Source: Rhodospirillales bacterium
GTDB taxonomy: Bacteria > Pseudomonadota > Alphaproteobacteria > Acetobacterales > Acetobacteraceae
NCBI GenBank assembly: GCA_947460455.1
Contig: CANHKG010000009.1
Span: 1 to 47,121, forward strand
DNA length: 47,121 bases
Direction: 5' to 3'
Below are positions 19,920 to 36,262 of this stretch, in pieces; within the stretch, counting starts at the first letter, position 1, and every line of letters starts with the position of its first letter. The notes beneath the pieces were generated by a model. That model searched no databases and had not been told where the DNA came from. It was given only the letters and a program-made list of their open reading frames with translations. Both the position numbers and the translations under genes were made by a program.

Positions 19920-20969
19920 CTATTCCGCCGGCAGGATCGCCCCGTCCGGCTGCGGCGTCTCGAAGACGTGATCAGCGAACGCTTCCTCCCACGACCCGGT
20001 GGTGGAGGCCTTGCTGTACTCGGTGGAGCGGTTCTCGAAGAAATTCGCATGCTCCGGCGCGTTCAGCATGTCGTCCAGCCACGGCAGCGGGTTCTTGTCC
20101 ACGTGGTACAGCGGCTCCAGCCCCAGCTGCGTCAGCCGCCGGTCGGCGATGAAGCGGATATACTGCTTCACCTCCACCGCGGTCAGACCCTCCACGTTGC
20201 CCAGCTCGAAGGCCAGGTCGATGAACGCGTCCTCATGGTCCACGATCGTGGCGCAGGTGAGGTACAGCTCGCGCCGCAGCTCCTCGGTCCAGATCTCCGG
20301 GTTCTCCTGCACGAAGGTGCGGAACAGCCGGATCACGGAAAGGCAATGCAGCGTCTCGTCACGCACGCTCCACGAGACGATCTGCCCCATCCCCTTCATC
20401 TTCCCGAAGCGCGGGAAGTTCAGCAGGATCGCAAAGCTGGCGAACAGCTGCAGCCCCTCGGTGAACGCCCCGAACGCCGCCAGCGTCTTGGCGATCTCGT
20501 GCTTGTTGTCCACCGTGAAGGACTGCATGTAGTCGTACTTGTCCTTCATCTCCTTGTACTTCAGGAACGCCGAGTATTCCAGCTCCGGCATGCCCACGGT
20601 ATCCAGCAGATGCGAATACGCCGCCACATGAATCGTCTCGATGTTCGAGAACGCCGAGAGCATCATCAGCACTTCCGTCGGCTTGAACACCTGCGAATAG
20701 TGCTTCATGTAGCAGTTGTTCACCTCAACGTCGGCCTGGGTGAAGAAGCGGAAGATCTGCGTCAGCAGGTTGCGCTCAGCCGCCGAAAGATTGCGGTGCC
20801 AATCCTTCACGTCGTCGGCCAGCGGCACCTCTTCCGGCAGCCAATGCACGCGCTGCTGCGTCAGCCACGCCTCATAGGCCCAGGGATAACGGAACGGCTT
20901 GTAAACCGGGTTGCTGGTCAGCAGGTCAAAGCGCACCGGGGTCTCATCGGGGGTATGCGTCGCACTCAT
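19920..20969 (-). CDS. nrdB: Class I ribonucleotide reductase, beta subunit
   Basis: Holds the di-iron centre and tyrosyl radical that start reduction of ribonucleotides by NrdA. 349 residues from the ATG at 20969, which has AGGAGAG upstream; an upstream extension of the frame is not NrdB-like. Metal ligands are visible: D80, E111, H114, E171, E205 and H208. The radical tyrosine Y118 lies four residues after H114, as in the standard class Ia enzyme. No ATP-cone domain precedes the core. A pair of NrdR-like boxes lies 83-129 bases upstream. nrdA is 2.3 kb away, behind an opposing chemoreceptor gene. Confidence 0.97.
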   Translation of the reverse strand: MSATHTPDETPVRFDLLTSNPVYKPFRYPWAYEAWLTQQRVHWLPEEVPLADDVKDWHRNLSAAERNLLTQIFRFFTQADVEVNNCYMKHYSQVFKPTEVLMMLSAFSNIETIHVAAYSHLLDTVGMPELEYSAFLKYKEMKDKYDYMQSFTVDNKHEIAKTLAAFGAFTEGLQLFASFAILLNFPRFGKMKGMGQIVSWSVRDETLHCLSVIRLFRTFVQENPEIWTEELRRELYLTCATIVDHEDAFIDLAFELGNVEGLTAVEVKQYIRFIADRRLTQLGLEPLYHVDKNPLPWLDDMLNAPEHANFFENRSTEYSKASTTGSWEEAFADHVFETPQPDGAILPAE

Positions 20970-21051
20970 CGTCCGGGCTCTCCTGTCTCTGCGAGTCTGC
21001 GCCGCACAGTACCATCTCCTGGTCCCCGCACCAACCCGCAGCCCGAATTTT

Positions 21052-21098
21052 CCACCATATGTTGCGTTTCCGCCGCACACCACCACCAGATGTGGGCA
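21052..21098. promoter_or_regulatory. Pair of NrdR-like boxes upstream of nrdB
   Basis: CCACCATATGTTGCGT (21052-21067) and CCACCAGATGTGGGCA (21083-21098) start exactly 31 bases apart, three helical turns. The first matches the published NrdR consensus acaCwAtATaTwGtgt at most conserved positions. The first box begins 83 bases upstream of the nrdB ATG, the same distance as in the nrdA promoter. NrdR represses ribonucleotide reductase genes in most bacteria. The same DNA is also upstream of the divergent PilZ chemoreceptor gene. Confidence 0.75.
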
Positions 21099-21189: not shown

Positions 21190-23226
21190 GTGACGACGTC
21201 GACCGCCGCCCCTACGCCCCCCCCCGCACGCCGTCGCCTGCTCTCCTTCTCCATCGGCCGCATAGCCACCATCGCCGTGCTGGTCATGGCCATGGTCACC
21301 GCCCTCAGCGACCTCCTGCTCCTGCGCGCCCTGTCGGAGCTGAAGGTCAACGGCCCCGTCTACGCCGAGATCCGCCGCGGCACCGACCTCACCGCCGATA
21401 TCCTCCCGCCGCCACTCTACGTCATCGAGGGCCTGCTCACCCTGCACGAGCTGCGAGCCGCCGAACCCACCGCCCGTGCCCCCTTGCTGGACCGCCTCGC
21501 CCGCCTCTCGCGCGAATTCGCCGAACGCGAAGCCTACTGGACGGCCCAGCCAGAGCTGCGCGCCGACCTGCGCCAGACGCTGGATGGCACCGTCATCCCC
21601 ACCGGGCGCCGTTTCTTCGAGGTGGTGCAGGCCCGCTTCCTGCCCGCGCTGGCCCAGCCCGCCGGCCTCGCCGCCGCCATGGCCGAAGCGCAGGCCGCCT
21701 ACGATGCCCATCGCGCCGCCGTCGATGAGCTGGTGGCCCGCTCCGCCCGCGCCGTGGAAGCCGCCGAAGCCCACGCCATCAGCCAGGACCGAACCGCCCG
21801 CACCATGATCTGGGGCCTCCTCGCCCTCGCCCTGCTCGTCACGCTGGGAACCTACTGGGTGATGCGCCGCACCGTCGCCCGCCCCGTCGTCTCGCTCGCC
21901 GATGCCATGCGCCGCCTCGCCGCCGGCGACGTCAACACCGAGATTCCCGGCGCCACCCGCCGCGACGAGCTCGGCCAGGCCGCCACGGCACTCGCCATCC
22001 TGCGCGACACCATGCGCCACGCCCGCCAACTGGAAGCCGACCGCGAAACCGCCCGCACCGAGGCCGATGCCGCCCGCAACGCCGCCCTGCTCGGCATGGC
22101 CGGCACCATCGAACGCGAGGCCAGCGGCACGATCGAGCGCGTGCGCGGCCTCACCCACTCCACCGCCGAGGCGGCACGCCTCATGACCACCGTCTCCGAC
22201 CACGCCCACACCTATGCCCGTCGCGCCAGCGATTCCTGCACCCGCGCCCTCACCACCGCCGAAACCGTGGCCGGCGCCGCGGAGGAGCTGGGCAGCGCCA
22301 TCGGCGAGATCACCCGCCAGGTCACCGGCGCCTCGGCCATCACCAGCAGCGCCGTCGCCGCCGGCGAGGATGCCCGCCGCAGCATCGAGGAGCTCACCGG
22401 CCGCGCCCAGGCCATCGGCGCCATCACCCGCATGATCGCCGACATCGCCGAGCGCACCAACCTGCTGGCGCTGAACGCCACCATCGAGGCCGCCCGCGCG
22501 GGCGAGGCCGGGCGCGGCTTCTCCGTCGTCGCCAGCGAGGTGAAGGCCCTCGCCGTGCAGACCGCCCGCTCCACCGAGGAAATCGTCACCCAGCTCGATC
22601 AGCTGCGCGGCGCGGCCAACGGCGCCGCGGAATCCGGCATGCGCATCGTCTCCACCATCAGCGAGATCGAGGCGATGTCCCAATCCATCGCCGCCGCGGT
22701 GGAACAGCAGGGCGCCGCCACCGCCTCCATCGTCAGCAACGTGGTGGAAACCACCCGCGCCGTGCGCGAAGCGGCCGAACACAGCGCCGCCGTCTCCTCC
22801 GATGCCGGCGATGTCGGCATCCAGGCCAGCGCCGTGCTCACCGCGGCGCGGGGGCTGGACGAAGCCGTGGGCGAATGGCGCACCATCGTCGTCCACACCA
22901 TCCGCACCGCCACCCCGGAAGCGGATCGCCGCACCGCGCCGCGCATCCCGCTGGGCATCCCGGCCCGGCTCCAGCCCCAGGGCCGCCCTCACGTCACCGC
23001 CCGGCTGGAAAACATCTCCACCGGCGGCGCCCTCCTCGCCGACGCCCCCGCCCTGCCACTCGGCCAGAAGTTACGCCTGAACGTAGCCAACCAGTCGATC
23101 GAGGCCACAGTGCTGGATGCCGGCCCCAATGGCACGGTGCAGCTTCAGTTCGCCGAAGGCGCTCTCAGCCAGGACGCAATCGACCAGCTCGCGAGCACAG
23201 CGGCACCGGCCCGGGTCGCGGCCTGA
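21190..23226 (+). CDS. Methyl-accepting chemotaxis protein with C-terminal PilZ domain
   Basis: 678 residues from a GTG with GAGG upstream. Membrane segments at about 22-44 and 206-225 enclose a helical periplasmic sensor of about 160 residues, likely a four-helix bundle. A HAMP linker (about 226-280) follows. The signalling domain's hairpin tip is around 418-460 ([20 protein letters not shown]). After it, residues 579-657 form a PilZ domain with R581xxxR585 and N608xSxxG613, the cyclic-di-GMP binding motifs. So it may join chemotaxis output with c-di-GMP level. No CheA, CheW or CheR gene is in the window. It lies between nrdB and nrdA on the opposite strand. Confidence 0.92.
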
Positions 23227-23239
23227 CGCAACCCTACCG

Positions 23240-23259
23240 GCCTGCCATCACTGGCAGGC
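23240..23259. terminator. Perfect hairpin overlapping the nrdA stop codon, between convergent genes
   Basis: GCCTGCCA (23240-23247), loop TCAC, TGGCAGGC (23252-23259): a perfect 8-bp stem that includes the nrdA stop and its last sense codons. The PilZ chemoreceptor ends 14 bases to the left, so it could act in both directions. No T-run is seen. Confidence 0.5.
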
Positions 23260-25122
23260 GAGGCATTCCTCGTAATCGGTGGGGTTCGCTTTCGGGGCGC
23301 CCGCGACCAGCGGCAGAATCCCCTGATCGTTCGCCGGCAGGTTCGCCGCCGAAACACCGGTGAATTCCAGCGGCCGCACCGCCTTCTCGCTCACCGCGTC
23401 GGCCCGCTGGATCGACATGGAGCGGCAGTAGTACAGGCTCTTCACGCCCTTCTTCCACGCTAGGTAGTGGATCTGGTGCAGGTCGCGCTTGTGCACGTCC
23501 GCCGGCACGAAGATGTTCACGCTCTGGCTCTGGCAGATGAACGGCGTCCGGTCCGCCGCATGCTCGATCACCCAGCGCTGGTCCAGCTCCATCGCGGTCT
23601 TGTACACCGCCTTCTCCTGCTCGGTCAGGAACTCCAGGTGCTGCACGCTGCCCTTGTTGGTGGTGATCGAAGACCACACCTCGTCGGTGTCCTGCCCCTT
23701 CGCCTTCAGCAACAGATGCAGGTGCCGGTTGCGCACCGTAAAGCTGCCCGAAAGCGTCTTCTGCAGGAACACGTTCGCCGCGATCGGCTCCACGCCCGGC
23801 GACGCATTGCCGGCGATGATCGAGATCGAAGCCGTGGGCGCAATCGCCATCTTGTGGCTGAACCGCTCATGCACGCCGTATTCGGCCGCATCCGGGCAGG
23901 CGCCGCGCTCATCGGCCAGCATCCGGCTGGCGTTATCGGCCTGCTCGCGGATGTGCTTGAACATCTTCTTGTTCCACACCTTCGCGATCACGCTCTCGAA
24001 GGGCACGTTCTGGCTCTGCAGGAACGAATGGAACCCCATCACCCCCAGCCCGACGGACCGCTCGCGCATCGCGGCATACTTCGCCCGCTCCATGTCCACC
24101 GGGGCGCGGTCGATGAAATCCTGCAGCACGTTGTCGAGGAAACGCATCACGTCCTCGATGAACAGCGGGTCGTCCTTCCACTCGAACCAGGATTCCAGGT
24201 TCAGGGAGGACAGGCAGCACACCGCCGTCCGTTGCTTGCCATGCTGGTCGATCCCGGTCGGCAGCGTGATCTCGCTGCACAGGTTCGATGTCTTGCACTC
24301 CAGCCCGGCCAGCTTGTGGTGCTCCGGCCGCGCATTGTTCACATGGTCGCTGAAGATCAGGTACGGCTCGCCGGTCTCGATCCGCGCCGTCAGGATGCGA
24401 ATCCACAGGCTGCGCGCGCTGATCTTGCGCACCACGCTGCCATCCTTGGGCGAGGTCAGGCCCCAGTCCTCGCCGGCTTCCACCGCACGCATGAACGCAT
24501 CCGGGATCAGGATGCCATGGTGCAGGTTCAGCGCCTTGCGATTCGGGTCACCGCCGGTCGGCCGGCGCATCTCCACGAATTCCTCGATCTCCGGGTGCGT
24601 CACCGGCAGGTACACCGCCGCCGAGCCGCGCCGCAGCGATCCCTGGCTGATCGCCAGCGTCAGGCTGTCCATCACCCGGATGAACGGGATCACGCCAGAG
24701 GTCTTGCCGTTCTGCCCCACCTTCTCGCCGATGGACCGCAGATTGCCCCAGTAGGAGCCGATGCCGCCGCCCTTGCTGGCCAGCCACACATTCTCGTTCC
24801 ACAGCCCCACGATCCCTTCGAGCGAGTCGCTCGCCTCGTTCAGGAAGCAGGAGATCGGCAGGCCGCGCGTGGTGCCGCCATTGGAAAGCACCGGCGTCGC
24901 CGGCATGAACCACATCCGGCTCATGTAGTCGTACAGCCGCTGCGCATGCCCGGCATCGTCGCCGTAGAAGCTGGAAACCCGCGCGAACAGGTCCTGGTAG
25001 CTCTCGCCCGGCAACAGGTACCGGTCATCCAGCGTGGCGCGCCCGAAATCGGTAATCAGCGCATCGCGGGAGCGATCAACGCGAACCTGGTGGTGACCCT
25101 GGAACTGAACGACATCAAGCAC
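23248..25122 (-). CDS. nrdA: Class I ribonucleotide reductase, alpha subunit
   Basis: Catalytic subunit that reduces ribonucleoside diphosphates to the deoxy forms. The GTG at 25122 is chosen because GAGGGG lies about 8 bases upstream; this gives 624 residues. Active-site residues: C92 (LPISCF) and C302/C303 (CCLSSLNL) for the redox pair; N280, C282 and E284 (NLCSE) for the radical site; the swinging C-terminal pair C620/C623 (ECLAC). The YY pair of the radical path is visible as LYYCRS. At 624 residues it is well short of the 761 of E. coli, mainly because the N-terminal ATP-cone is absent, so the dATP off-switch is probably missing. Confidence 0.97.
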   Translation of the reverse strand: MLDVVQFQGHHQVRVDRSRDALITDFGRATLDDRYLLPGESYQDLFARVSSFYGDDAGHAQRLYDYMSRMWFMPATPVLSNGGTTRGLPISCFLNEASDSLEGIVGLWNENVWLASKGGGIGSYWGNLRSIGEKVGQNGKTSGVIPFIRVMDSLTLAISQGSLRRGSAAVYLPVTHPEIEEFVEMRRPTGGDPNRKALNLHHGILIPDAFMRAVEAGEDWGLTSPKDGSVVRKISARSLWIRILTARIETGEPYLIFSDHVNNARPEHHKLAGLECKTSNLCSEITLPTGIDQHGKQRTAVCCLSSLNLESWFEWKDDPLFIEDVMRFLDNVLQDFIDRAPVDMERAKYAAMRERSVGLGVMGFHSFLQSQNVPFESVIAKVWNKKMFKHIREQADNASRMLADERGACPDAAEYGVHERFSHKMAIAPTASISIIAGNASPGVEPIAANVFLQKTLSGSFTVRNRHLHLLLKAKGQDTDEVWSSITTNKGSVQHLEFLTEQEKAVYKTAMELDQRWVIEHAADRTPFICQSQSVNIFVPADVHKRDLHQIHYLAWKKGVKSLYYCRSMSIQRADAVSEKAVRPLEFTGVSAANLPANDQGILPLVAGAPKANPTDYEECLACQ

Positions 25123-25516
25123 GAGAAGCCCCCTCACCGCGACGTGGGGATCACATCCCCGCAACCCCATCCTGCCCAACGGCTTGCCGGCGTCAATTCA
25201 AATCATACTAGATGTAGGGCATTGCTGCCCCTCCCCGCATAAATGTGGATATCTGATGCGCCGCGGCAACACCGCAGCCGCGAACGAAACAGGAACATAG
25301 GCCACGCCCATCGCGGCGCCAAGCGCAATCCGATTCGCGCCCCATGTACCCCCGCTATCCACAGGGCTCTGCCATGCCAGCGCACCGCGCCGCGTCGCCG
25401 CAAGCCCATTTTGGAGCGACTCCTGTCAGCCCCCACCCGCGCCGGCAGAACTTCGCACATTGGCAATCCCGCGCACCTACCCCTCGCCGCTTCGCCCCAT
25501 TTCAGCCCGAGGCCCC
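25123..25516. other. 394-base intergenic region between nrdA and a chemoreceptor gene
   Basis: Divergent promoter region. The left half is A/T-richer and carries the NrdR-like boxes of nrdA. The right half is GC-rich and contains GAGG just before the chemoreceptor ATG at 25517. No convincing small gene or RNA was seen. Confidence 0.6.
25205..25251. promoter_or_regulatory. Pair of NrdR-like boxes upstream of nrdA
   Basis: ATACTAGATGTAGGGC (25205-25220) and CGCATAAATGTGGATA (25236-25251) start exactly 31 bases apart and share the core A-N-ATGT-N-G with the nrdB pair. The first begins 83 bases upstream of the nrdA GTG, as in nrdB. The second box is the weakest of the four. The repeated geometry is stronger evidence than either match alone. 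Confidence 0.7.
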
Positions 25517-27499
25517 ATGCGACGCTCCATCACCCTTGCCACGAAGCTCTCCCTCGCTTTCGTCGCAATCGTCGCCGTCGCCTGCGCCACCATGGCCGGC
25601 TGGTCCCTCTGGCAAGCCCACCAGCGCGCCGACCACGAAGCCACCGCCAGCCTCGCCGCCGGTGCCGCAGCCCTCGAACGCGCCCTGGCCGACGAAACCA
25701 GCCGCCAGACCGCCATCGCCCGCACCCTGGCCGCCCTGCCCCAGTTCCAGGCCCTCACCGCCGCCGCCGATCGGGAAGCCACGCTCGCCGCCTTCGCGCC
25801 ACCCTTCGCCGCCCTCACCGCCTCGGGCGACATCACCAACCTGTCCATCATCCTGCGCTCCGGCCTCGCCCTGGCCCGCGCCCACAACCCCAAATCCTTC
25901 GGCGACGACGTCTCCGCCCGCCGGCAGGACATGGTCGTGGCCATGCGCGACAACCGCGTCTTCGCCGGGATCGAACAACTGCCCGATGGCGCCGGCGTCG
26001 CCGCCGTCGTCCCCGTGCTCCACAACGGCACCGTCGTCGGCGTGCTGAACGCCAGCACCACCTTCAACGCCACCCAGCTCAACCGCCTGCGCGCCCTCAC
26101 CGGCCTCGGCCTGGCCATCCAGGGCCTCCGCCAAGACAAGCTCGTCCCGCTCGGCACCTCGCAAGGCTTCGCCGCCGCCGCCACGGAGCCGGAACTGCGC
26201 GCCGCCTTCACCCGCGCCCCCTCCGCCACCGCGCCCGCCGCCCGCACCATGGCGGCCGAAGGTCGCACCACCTCCATCCTCCTCACCCCGCTGCGCAACT
26301 CCACCGGCGCCATCGTCGCCGTCGCCGAAATCCAGCTGGACCGCACCGCCCAGGTTGCCGAGGCCCGCGCCGAGCGCCTCGCCATCGCAGCCATCGCCGC
26401 CGCCATCCTCCTGGCCGCCGCCCTGCTCGGCTGGCGCGTCGCCCGCGGCATCGCCGGCCCCGTCGCCGCCATGACCCGCGCCATGGAAGCCCTCGCCGCC
26501 GGCCGCCTCGATACCGAAATCCCCGCCCGCACCAGCCAGGACGAGCTCGGCGCCATGGCCCGCTCCGTCCAGGTCTTCAAGGAAAACGCCATCGCCGTCG
26601 CCCACCTGGCCCAGGAGAAGCTCGCCGCCGAACAACACGCTGCCGCCAGCCGCCGCGCCGAACGCCACCGCCTCGCCGCCGATTTCCAATCCGCCGTCGG
26701 CACCCTGCTCACCGGCGTCACCGCCGCCGCCACGGAAATGGAAGGCTCCGCCCGCGCGCTCGCCACCACCGCCGAACACGCCAACCACCGCGCCCACGCC
26801 GTCGCCGCCGCCACCGGCGAAACCTCCTCCAACGTGCAAACCGTCGCCGCCGCCACGGAGCAACTCTCGGCCAGCGTCGGCGAAATCTCCCGCCAGGTCG
26901 TCGCCAGCAGCCAGATCGCCAACCGCGCCGTGGAACAATCCGAAGCCACCGACCAGCGCGTCCAGGGCCTCGCCGCCGCCGCAGCCCAGATCGGAGACGT
27001 CGTCCGCCTCATCGGCGACATCGCCGGCCGCACCAACCTGCTGGCCCTCAACGCCACCATCGAGGCCGCCCGCGCCGGGGAAGCCGGCAAGGGCTTCGCC
27101 GTCGTCGCCACCGAAGTGAAGAACCTCGCCACCCAAACCGCCCGCGCCACCCAGGAAATCAGCGCCAAGGTCGCGGAAATGCAGGCCGCCACCACCGACA
27201 GCGTCGCCGCCGTCCGCTCCATCGCCAGCACCATCGGCGAAATCGCCGCCATCGCCGGCAGCATCGCCGCGGCCGTGGAGCAGCAAGGCGCGGCTACCCA
27301 GGAAATCGCCCGCAGCGTCCATCACGCCGCCGCCGGCACACGCAACGTCGCCAGCAACATCGCCGCCGTCACCGAAGCCGCCGGCGAAACCGGCACCGCC
27401 GCCAGCTCCATGCTCGATGCTGCCACGGAACTTTCGGGTCAGTCGGAAACCCTGCGCATGGAAATCAACAAGTTCCTCGAAGGGGTCAAGGCAGCTTAA
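25517..27499 (+). CDS. Methyl-accepting chemotaxis protein, Cache-type sensor
   Basis: 660 residues from the ATG at 25517 with GAGG upstream. Membrane segments at about 8-30 and 288-306 enclose a large periplasmic sensor of about 255 residues. In it, [16 protein letters not shown] (121-136) and later [16 protein letters not shown] resemble the double-Cache type 3 domain. HAMP follows (about 307-360), then the signalling domain with the conserved tip [20 protein letters not shown] and a short C-terminal tail without a CheR-tethering pentapeptide. The ligand is unknown; Cache sensors commonly bind small metabolites. It ends 7 bases before the 35-nt repeat. Confidence 0.93.
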
Positions 27500-34194: not shown

Positions 34195-36262
34195 TCAGGC
34201 CGCCTTCATCTCCTCCACGAAGCGCCGCACTTCGGCGGTCAACGTCACCACGGTCCCGTCCACCCTGCCGGCAGATTCCAGCACCTGCGCGGCCTGCGCC
34301 TCGGTCTGCTGCGTGTCGCCGCTCACTCCGGCGATGTTCACCGTCACCTCCTGCGTGCCCGCCGCCGCCTGGTGCACGTTGCGTGCAATCTCCTGCGTCG
34401 CCGCGCCCTGCTCCTCCACCGCCGCCGCGATCGCCGCCGCGATGTTCCCCACCTCCTCCACGCGCCCGCCAATGGCCCGGATCGCCGCCACCGCTTCCCC
34501 CGTCGTCGCCTGGATCTCCCCGATCTGCCGCCCGATCGCCTCGGTTGCCCGCGCCGTCTGGCTCGCAAGGTTCTTCACCTCCGTCGCAACAACCGCGAAG
34601 CCCTTTCCGGCCTCGCCCGCCCGCGCCGCCTCGATGGTGGCGTTCAGCGCCAGCAGGTTGGTCTGCGCCGCGATGGAACTGATCAGCCCCACCACCTCCC
34701 CGATCGTCTCCGCCCCCTGCGCCAGCGCCTGCACCACGCCATCGGTCTGCCGCGCATCCGCCACTGCCCGCCCCGCCACCTCGGCCGACCGGTTCACCTG
34801 CATCATGATCTCCGCCACAGAGGCTGAAAGCTCCTCCGCCGCGCTGGCCACCATCTGCACGTTGGCGCTGGCCTGCTCCGCACCCGCGGCCACGGCGGTC
34901 GCCTTGCGCATGGAACCGCTGGCCGTCTCCCGCATCTGCCCGGCCACGCCCTGCATCGCAACCGCCCCCGCCGCCACCTCGCCCACCAGGGCGCCCGCCG
35001 AAGCCTCGAACTCACGCATCAGCCGCTCCAACGCCTCGGCTCGGCGCAGCTTCATCGTCTGCTCCGCCGCCTGCAGCGCCGCCAGCCGGTCGCCTTCGAT
35101 CCCACTGGCCTTGAACACGTCCACCGCCCGCGCCATCGCGCCAAGCTCATCCCGGCGCTGCGTGCCCGGCACGTCCGTGCCCCAATCCCGCGCCGCCAGC
35201 CGCCCCATCGCCACCGTCAGCGCCCGCACCGGCCGAACCACGCTCCGCCCGAATCCCAGCCCGAACGCCGCCGACCCCAGAACCAGCGCCAACGCTGCCG
35301 CCCCACCGCCCCACAGCATCCGCCGGCTCGCGGCCCTCATCTCCGCCGCCTCCGCCAGCAGCTGCGCCGCGATCTCGTCCTCGGCCTGCTTCAACAGATC
35401 CACCCGCGCGGTTGCGGCCTTGAACCACCGCCCGCCCGCTCCGGCCGCCTCCCCCAACGCGGCTCCAACCGGCGTCTCAAGCGCCACCCGCCGCATGCGC
35501 ATCGCCTCGTCCACATCAGCCCCGCGCACCAGCGCCTGCAGTCGCTCCCGCTCCACCGGCGTCGCCAACCCTCGGAAAGCCTGCTCGAACGCCCCATGCT
35601 CCGCGATCACGCCCAGGAACCGGCGATACGCCTCGGCCTCGAACCGCCCGGCCCCAAATCCCACGCCCCCGCTGCCGCGCTCCAGCGCCGCGCGCTCCTT
35701 CATCTGCACCAGGTTGAAGTAGAGCATCATCGGCCGCGCCAGCTCGTCCACCGTGGTGGCCCCCACCAGCTGCCCCACGCCGTCCGCCAGCGCCGACACC
35801 AGCGCGGTATAGGCACCGATCGCCGCCCCTCCCGTCACCTGCCGCGCCGAAACACGCTCACGCAGCGCCGCCACTCCCGCCAGCGCCGCCGCCCTCCCGC
35901 GCATCGCCCCGCGCCGCCAACTGCTCCAGCCCTGTCGCGAACACCGCCTGCGCCGCATCCGTCCGCGTCCGCTGCGCCCGAAGCTCGGTCTCCAACGCCT
36001 CTCCGTTTGCGGCCAGCGAAAGCGCAGAGATCCCGCGCTCGCGCTGCAGCTCATGCATCAGCGCACTCGCCCGCGTCGCCAGCTCCACCCCCGCGCCCAC
36101 CCGCGCCATGTCCCGCGCCGCATCCCATTGCTGCCACACCAGCACCCCGGCCAGCGCCGAAAGTCCCAGGATCGGCAGCAGCAACGCCACCCCCAGTCGC
36201 GCCGCCAACCGGTCGACAAACCGCGGCACCACGCCGCCGGACAAGCTCAGGGAAACTGCCAT
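34195..36262 (-). pseudogene. NIT-domain methyl-accepting chemotaxis protein, frameshifted
   Basis: Two overlapping frames make up one receptor. The first frame (36262-35858) encodes the N-terminus: a membrane segment at about 23-44, then [20 protein letters not shown], the start of a NIT (nitrate/nitrite-sensing) domain. The second frame (ending at 34195) encodes the rest of NIT, a second membrane segment ([16 protein letters not shown]), HAMP, and the signalling domain with [20 protein letters not shown]. The second frame lies one base further on, so one base has been gained (or two lost), most likely in the G-rich run 35895-35930. It may be a true inactivation or a sequencing error. Confidence 0.85.

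Follow-up and report, generated by a model that had tools for sequence, protein, structure and literature searches.

Chemoreceptors (MCPs) that end in a PilZ domain are known yet little studied, as was rightly remarked in the initial annotation of the gene described here, and a 2013 count cited in PMC6454048 gives such a tail for 52 of 20,681 chemoreceptors. For Tlp1 of Azospirillum brasilense, Arg563 of the RxxxR motif is reported to be needed for c-di-GMP binding, with a KD of 6.9 uM (Russell 2013, as cited in PMC6454048). Cbp1 of Azorhizobium caulinodans (AZC_3349) is described as binding c-di-GMP through its RxxxR motif with a KD of 14.9 uM, and this binding as being required for normal chemotaxis (PMC6454048). 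For Aer of A. brasilense (AZOBR_p280026), PMC6406031 describes the PilZ domain as needed for function, with its removal altering aerotaxis. In addition, MapZ together with c-di-GMP is reported to inhibit the methylation of MCPs by CheR1 in Pseudomonas aeruginosa (PMC6370697). How one receptor integrates c-di-GMP with chemotaxis is still an unsettled question.

A transmembrane chemoreceptor with a C-terminal PilZ domain

We have analysed a stretch of 47,121 nucleotides (hereafter the window) that makes up contig C9 in a genome assembly of 5.19 Mb (356 contigs, 95.8% complete). The gene at 21190-23226 encodes a transmembrane chemoreceptor with a C-terminal PilZ domain, i.e., a protein of a known kind (Table 1). 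The signalling domain contains the hairpin tip, two membrane segments enclose a sensor, and HAMP follows the second of them. The methylation-site consensus is matched on both MCP helices (at aa 361 and 501-502), and methylation itself is predicted.

Table 1 Features of the MCP-PilZ gene and the two genes flanking it (window positions unless given as aa).
Feature	Position	Strand	Remarks
nrdB	19920-21086	-	
MCP-PilZ chemoreceptor gene	21190-23226	+	678 aa; GTG start, stop ends at 23226, frame open
First hydrophobic (transmembrane) segment	21259-21336	+	about aa 24-49, peaks 16-49 (Kyte-Doolittle)
Extracytoplasmic sensor	21337-21801	+	~155 residues; four-helix bundle predicted; conserved motif inside
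Second hydrophobic segment	21802-21864	+	about aa 205-225, peaks 202-225 (Kyte-Doolittle)
HAMP	21862-22017	+	aa 225-276; Pfam 2.8e-10
Methylation-site consensus	22270-22299	+	aa 361-370; pattern match
MCP signalling domain (MCPsignal)	22369-22803	+	aa 394-538; Pfam 5e-25
Conserved hairpin tip of MCP domain	aa 421-439	+	
Methylation-site consensus	22690-22722	+	aa 501-511; pattern match
PilZ domain (PF07238)	22924-23157	+	aa 579-656; Pfam and predicted fold
RxxxR (RTAPR)	22930-22944	+	aa 581-585
NxSxxG (NISTGG)	23011-23028	+	aa 608-613
nrdA	23248-25179	-	

The order of an MCP domain followed by PilZ had been proposed from the letters alone, and the profile search confirms it: PilZ scores 32.5 bits (1.1e-7) in the full protein against the Pfam gathering cut-off of 22.5, and 36.9 bits (4.7e-9) when the last 119 residues are searched alone. 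Both motifs are intact and lie exactly where they had been placed, and when the tail is shuffled 20,000 times, RxxxR followed by NxSxxG turns up in 0.2% of the results. The tail model (AlphaFold2) shows six strands and a C-terminal helix, that is, a PilZ beta-barrel. Its best Foldseek rows are PilZ chains, with the Alg44 PilZ in complex with c-di-GMP (4rt0) at E 1e-4, and BcsA, PA0012, and other PilZ chains head the VIA-align list at Z 9-11. The TM-scores to PilZ chains, by query length, are ~0.4-0.5 for this model, which was built on 4 sequences and has a pLDDT below 50 over its residues 1-27, where RxxxR lies. The sequence-only search of the PDB with the tail returned no PilZ match. A PilZ assignment arising from chance motifs is ruled out by the agreement of profile, fold, and orthologues.

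In an alignment of 14 PilZ domains (A3), both arginines of RxxxR and the last glycine of the second motif are among the four invariant positions, and the serine of the second motif is replaced by alanine in 2 of the 5 fusions of the genome. The PilZ tail quite probably binds c-di-GMP.

For the sensor, Pfam gave no family above the cut-off, and the Pfam search of the whole protein gave no PAS match. The sensor model is a four-helix bundle with a mean pLDDT of 58, which matches MCP2201, PcaY_PP, and other four-helix ligand-binding domains at Z ~12; as helical bundles are concerned, these matches may reflect a common arrangement only. Sensor-like sequences are found in 4 other genomes among the 190 of the class that were searched, at 36-43% identity and in frames of 677-843 aa.

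PilZ tails at a nearly fixed register

The initial annotation missed that the genome encodes five such fusions, that its Pfam-level PilZ domains are all on chemoreceptors, and that the gene lies between nrdA and nrdB. All 4 Pfam PilZ matches in the genome are C-terminal to an MCP domain. The fifth fusion, on contig C90 (L118:1422-3416), has a PilZ domain that Pfam misses at E 0.1 and that a profile built from the other fusions detects, which suggests that PilZ tails are undercounted in the family. Thus 5 of the 17 MCPsignal matches of the genome, some of which are fragments, carry a PilZ tail. Their sensors include PAS plus a TarH/4HB-type domain on C23 and sCache_2 on C90, and no sensor family was found by Pfam in the fusions on C2 and C6. 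A 60-aa open-ended fragment at a contig edge (L129, G000:C99:4-117) gives a weak match to the PilZ profile (6.3e-4). Both halves of c-di-GMP turnover are encoded as well, with 5 GGDEF matches and 7 EAL matches (6 above cut-off).

We have compared the C-terminal ends in 72 distinct MCP ORFs, comprising 58 with a tail, 10 comparable ones without it, and 4 of an E. coli-like type. The register was counted with the first tip-motif residue as zero, and where several RxxxR lay in range, the one nearest to +160 was taken. Counted this way, the receptors without a tail end exactly at +156 in all 10 cases, and the first arginine of RxxxR is at +160 in 43 of the 58 fusions, +161 in 11, +164 in 3, and +159 in 1. 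The product of 21190-23226 has its RxxxR at tip+160, and so do all three plasmid fusions (A. brasilense Sp7, Skermanella rosea, and Niveispirillum); a plasmid receptor of Skermanella mucosa has no tail and ends at 156. In the window itself, two further receptors, at 25460-27499 (+, dCache_3) and 34195-36054 (-, NIT), end at tip+156 without PilZ. The two complete C-termini of E. coli-type receptors in the genome (L112:2032-4401 and L113:3-587) are unlike the PilZ class and end in DWKEF, a CheR-tether-like pentapeptide.

Two styles of junction can be distinguished. In the first, IRTAT or VRTST precedes DRR, as in the product of 21190-23226 and the Azospirillaceae plasmid proteins; in the second, the normal receptor ending is kept as EVxxFL. 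In a tree of the 58 PilZ and 10 non-PilZ rows, with the four E. coli-type receptors omitted, the second style falls mostly in a 16-row group that is separate from the 41-row group of the others. Since the rows were largely chosen by likeness to a PilZ-bearing query, gain and loss counts from this tree are weak. We read the two junction styles in mostly separate groups as a sign that PilZ was attached at least twice at the same end point, but a single origin of the attachment is possible too.

Distribution in relatives and the nrdA/nrdB locus

A PF07238 search was carried out in 30 relatives, where the genus amounts to 8 genomes with the source genome counted. In the genus, 28 of the 30 PilZ matches are in MCP ORFs, and the 2 exceptions lie at contig edges, as open-ended fragments no longer than 101 aa. 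This proportion is 5/13 for the family's other genera, where one genome (G004) accounts for all 5, and 1/23 in other families of the class. With the profile built from fusions, which is more sensitive and biased to fusions, 37 of 40 matches in the same eight genomes are in MCP ORFs, and the remainder are contig-edge fragments. PilZ-bearing frames of 1500-1777 aa in other genera are likely fused cellulose synthases. This lineage pattern, with Pfam-level PilZ almost wholly on chemoreceptors, is what is new here. Among the papers listed by our literature search, none dealt with MCP-PilZ fusions of Acetobacteraceae or of a freshwater lineage.

As to the spread of this particular fusion, which the initial annotation had suggested checking, four other genomes of the genus have PilZ-tailed orthologues, with identities of 92% (G033), 91% (G212), 61% (G171), and 77% and 73% on two contigs (G244). 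Among the best 30 matching loci, chosen by likeness to the PilZ-bearing query and with the gene itself counted, 29 have the tail, and they extend to 15 further genera. Of the plasmid fusions, PilZ is above the cut-off in A. brasilense Sp7 and S. rosea, and below it (17.4 bits) in Niveispirillum.

The MCP-PilZ gene lies antisense between nrdB and nrdA and splits the pair. This arrangement recurs in G033, G212, and G171, and the two broken contigs of G244 are consistent with it; in G171, the gap between nrdA and nrdB is ~2 kb longer and holds further ORFs. For the other three genomes of the genus (G119, G274, and G297), the search gave no nrdA at its threshold. Neither this MCP nor nrdA was found upstream of nrdB in G119 and G274, over ~2.1 and ~1.5 kb up to the contig end, and the contig of G297 ends at nrdB. 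Outside the genus, several genomes (e.g. G003, G006, G306, and G309) have nrdA and nrdB close together on one strand, while the two are far apart in G308 and on different contigs in G010. A pattern search for an NrdR-like box found none in the window; the promoter scan gave none, and the terminator scan gave one hit that is not above chance.

We have further calculated dS values for this locus, excluding the MCP2 rows of G212, G171, and G244, in which a paralogue and not the orthologue had been matched. Between the source genome (G000) and G033, dS is 0.65 for the PilZ part and 1.06 for the last 21 codons, against 0.07-0.13 for the rest of the gene and 0.09-0.18 for seven neighbouring genes. 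Against G212, the values are 0.32 for the PilZ part, 0.24 for the N-terminal part, and 0.11-0.13 for the rest. The dip in identity extends over ~22,880-23,240 and stops at the 3' end of nrdA. A PilZ excess general to MCP-PilZ genes is ruled out: in the four other fusion groups of the genome, dS is 0.05-0.34 for PilZ and 0.08-0.25 for the MCP part. As these groups have no comparable excess, the value of 0.65 is peculiar to the nrdA/nrdB locus. Our own reading of the dS pattern is that the PilZ segment may have been replaced through recombination, and a metagenome chimera is another possible source of the divergence. The PilZ segment has a dN/dS ratio of 0.27 in the comparison with G033 and likewise with G212, so the segment is constrained; against more distant relatives the ratios are higher, at 0.65 and 0.68. 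The G033 orthologue reads NISTGD and thus has lost the last glycine of the motif, and its PilZ domain is under the Pfam search threshold.

Possible action of c-di-GMP on the tail, and comparison with known receptors

Overall, the best explanation is a receptor of the Tlp1/Aer/Cbp1 type, in which c-di-GMP on the PilZ tail shifts kinase output or adaptation, and we give this reading a probability of roughly 0.72. The outer four-helix sensor and HAMP would act on the CheA-controlling MCP hairpin, and PilZ is attached where comparable receptors without it end, at the end of the returning helix that is close to the membrane. With a rise in c-di-GMP, the two motifs RxxxR and NxSxxG would close on it, the helix end would be stiffened or repositioned next to the coiled coil of the HAMP linker, and the altered helix end would shift the kinase output or adaptation. 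The end of HAMP (276) is 163 residues from the tip Glu439, and Glu439 is ~138 residues from the tail; a simple count along the helices would thus put the tail next to the linker that joins HAMP to the four-helix bundle. Since RxxxR is only a few residues beyond the helix end, c-di-GMP could act directly on it; we consider such an allosteric route quite conceivable, at slightly under even odds. The present evidence fits direct allostery as well as the recruitment of CheR or of some other partner. That a direct fusion lets c-di-GMP tune chemotaxis, as the initial annotation supposed, can fairly be expected by analogy, because an effect on chemotaxis has been demonstrated with Cbp1 and is also reported for Tlp1 and Aer, and an effect through the present tail is accordingly termed probable here.

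A different possibility is that the tail works on methylation, as a built-in, c-di-GMP-dependent site that docks or blocks CheR in a MapZ-like manner. The CheR1-MapZ complex (5xly) is indeed among the fold matches of the tail, though it ranks under other PilZ chains, the tail occupies the place of the DWKEF end seen in the two E. coli-like C-termini, the genome has two CheR genes, and the same idea is raised by the authors of Cbp1 in the text of PMC6454048. However, the genome has 7 further receptors of this class that stop at 156 and lack both PilZ and the pentapeptide, which implies that a C-terminal CheR site is dispensable, and we regard a docking role as rather unlikely. It is much less probable that the PilZ fold has been retained for structure or array packing with its c-di-GMP binding lost: the altered glycine of the G033 orthologue and the Ser-to-Ala change in some paralogues would fit such a loss, but both motifs are intact in the product of 21190-23226, the invariant positions in A3 include the arginines and the last glycine, and the motif serine is not critical in YcgR according to the work cited in PMC6454048. 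Equally improbable is a receptor serving a non-flagellar chemosensory pathway tuned by c-di-GMP, e.g. for surface or biofilm control, as the reports on all three characterised MCP-PilZ receptors place them in chemotaxis or aerotaxis, even if the genome likely has two chemosensory pathways, given that its 2 CheR matches are on two contigs and the adjoining ORFs on both resemble Che proteins by eye.

More tentatively, the chemoreceptor array might be the only PilZ-type outlet of c-di-GMP in the genus, with standalone PilZ proteins and PilZ-bearing cellulose synthase absent and with fixed-register tails on quite different sensors, and hence the chief site at which c-di-GMP is weighed against outside signals. 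The fixed distance from tip to RxxxR, apparently reached from two junctions, might then be a mechanical constraint on how PilZ acts. A lineage with detected PilZ only on chemoreceptors, at a nearly fixed register and on sensors that differ, would serve as a clean natural system in which binding mutants would act on chemotaxis alone, and the receptors of the same class with and without PilZ in one genome are internal controls.

Taken alone, the single protein is an ordinary further example; what gives the case its value is the pattern across the lineage, together with the nearly fixed register. A PilZ domain that follows the MCP domain directly within a single chain is the architecture of the Tlp1/Aer/Cbp1 kind. 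Tlp1, which was studied early, is likewise a chemoreceptor with a C-terminal PilZ domain, a likeness drawn from its description. Cbp1 shares the MCP domain followed by PilZ with RxxxR and D/NxSxxG; unlike the present protein, it is described as soluble, without membrane segments, and as the sole PilZ chemoreceptor among 43, whereas the source genome has five. Aer, as described, shares the order HAMP-MCP-PilZ, but its sensor is a cytoplasmic PAS domain of the FAD type in place of an outer four-helix sensor. MapZ is described as having the PilZ fold and linking c-di-GMP to chemoreceptors, yet it is a free-standing adaptor that acts on CheR1 unfused. Finally, WP_059399800.1 (L130), encoded on plasmid ABSP7_p4 of A. 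brasilense Sp7, shows HAMP, MCPsignal, and PilZ by Pfam with RxxxR at tip+160; its N-terminal region has no Pfam match, and it is ~40% identical to the product of 21190-23226 from HAMP to early PilZ.
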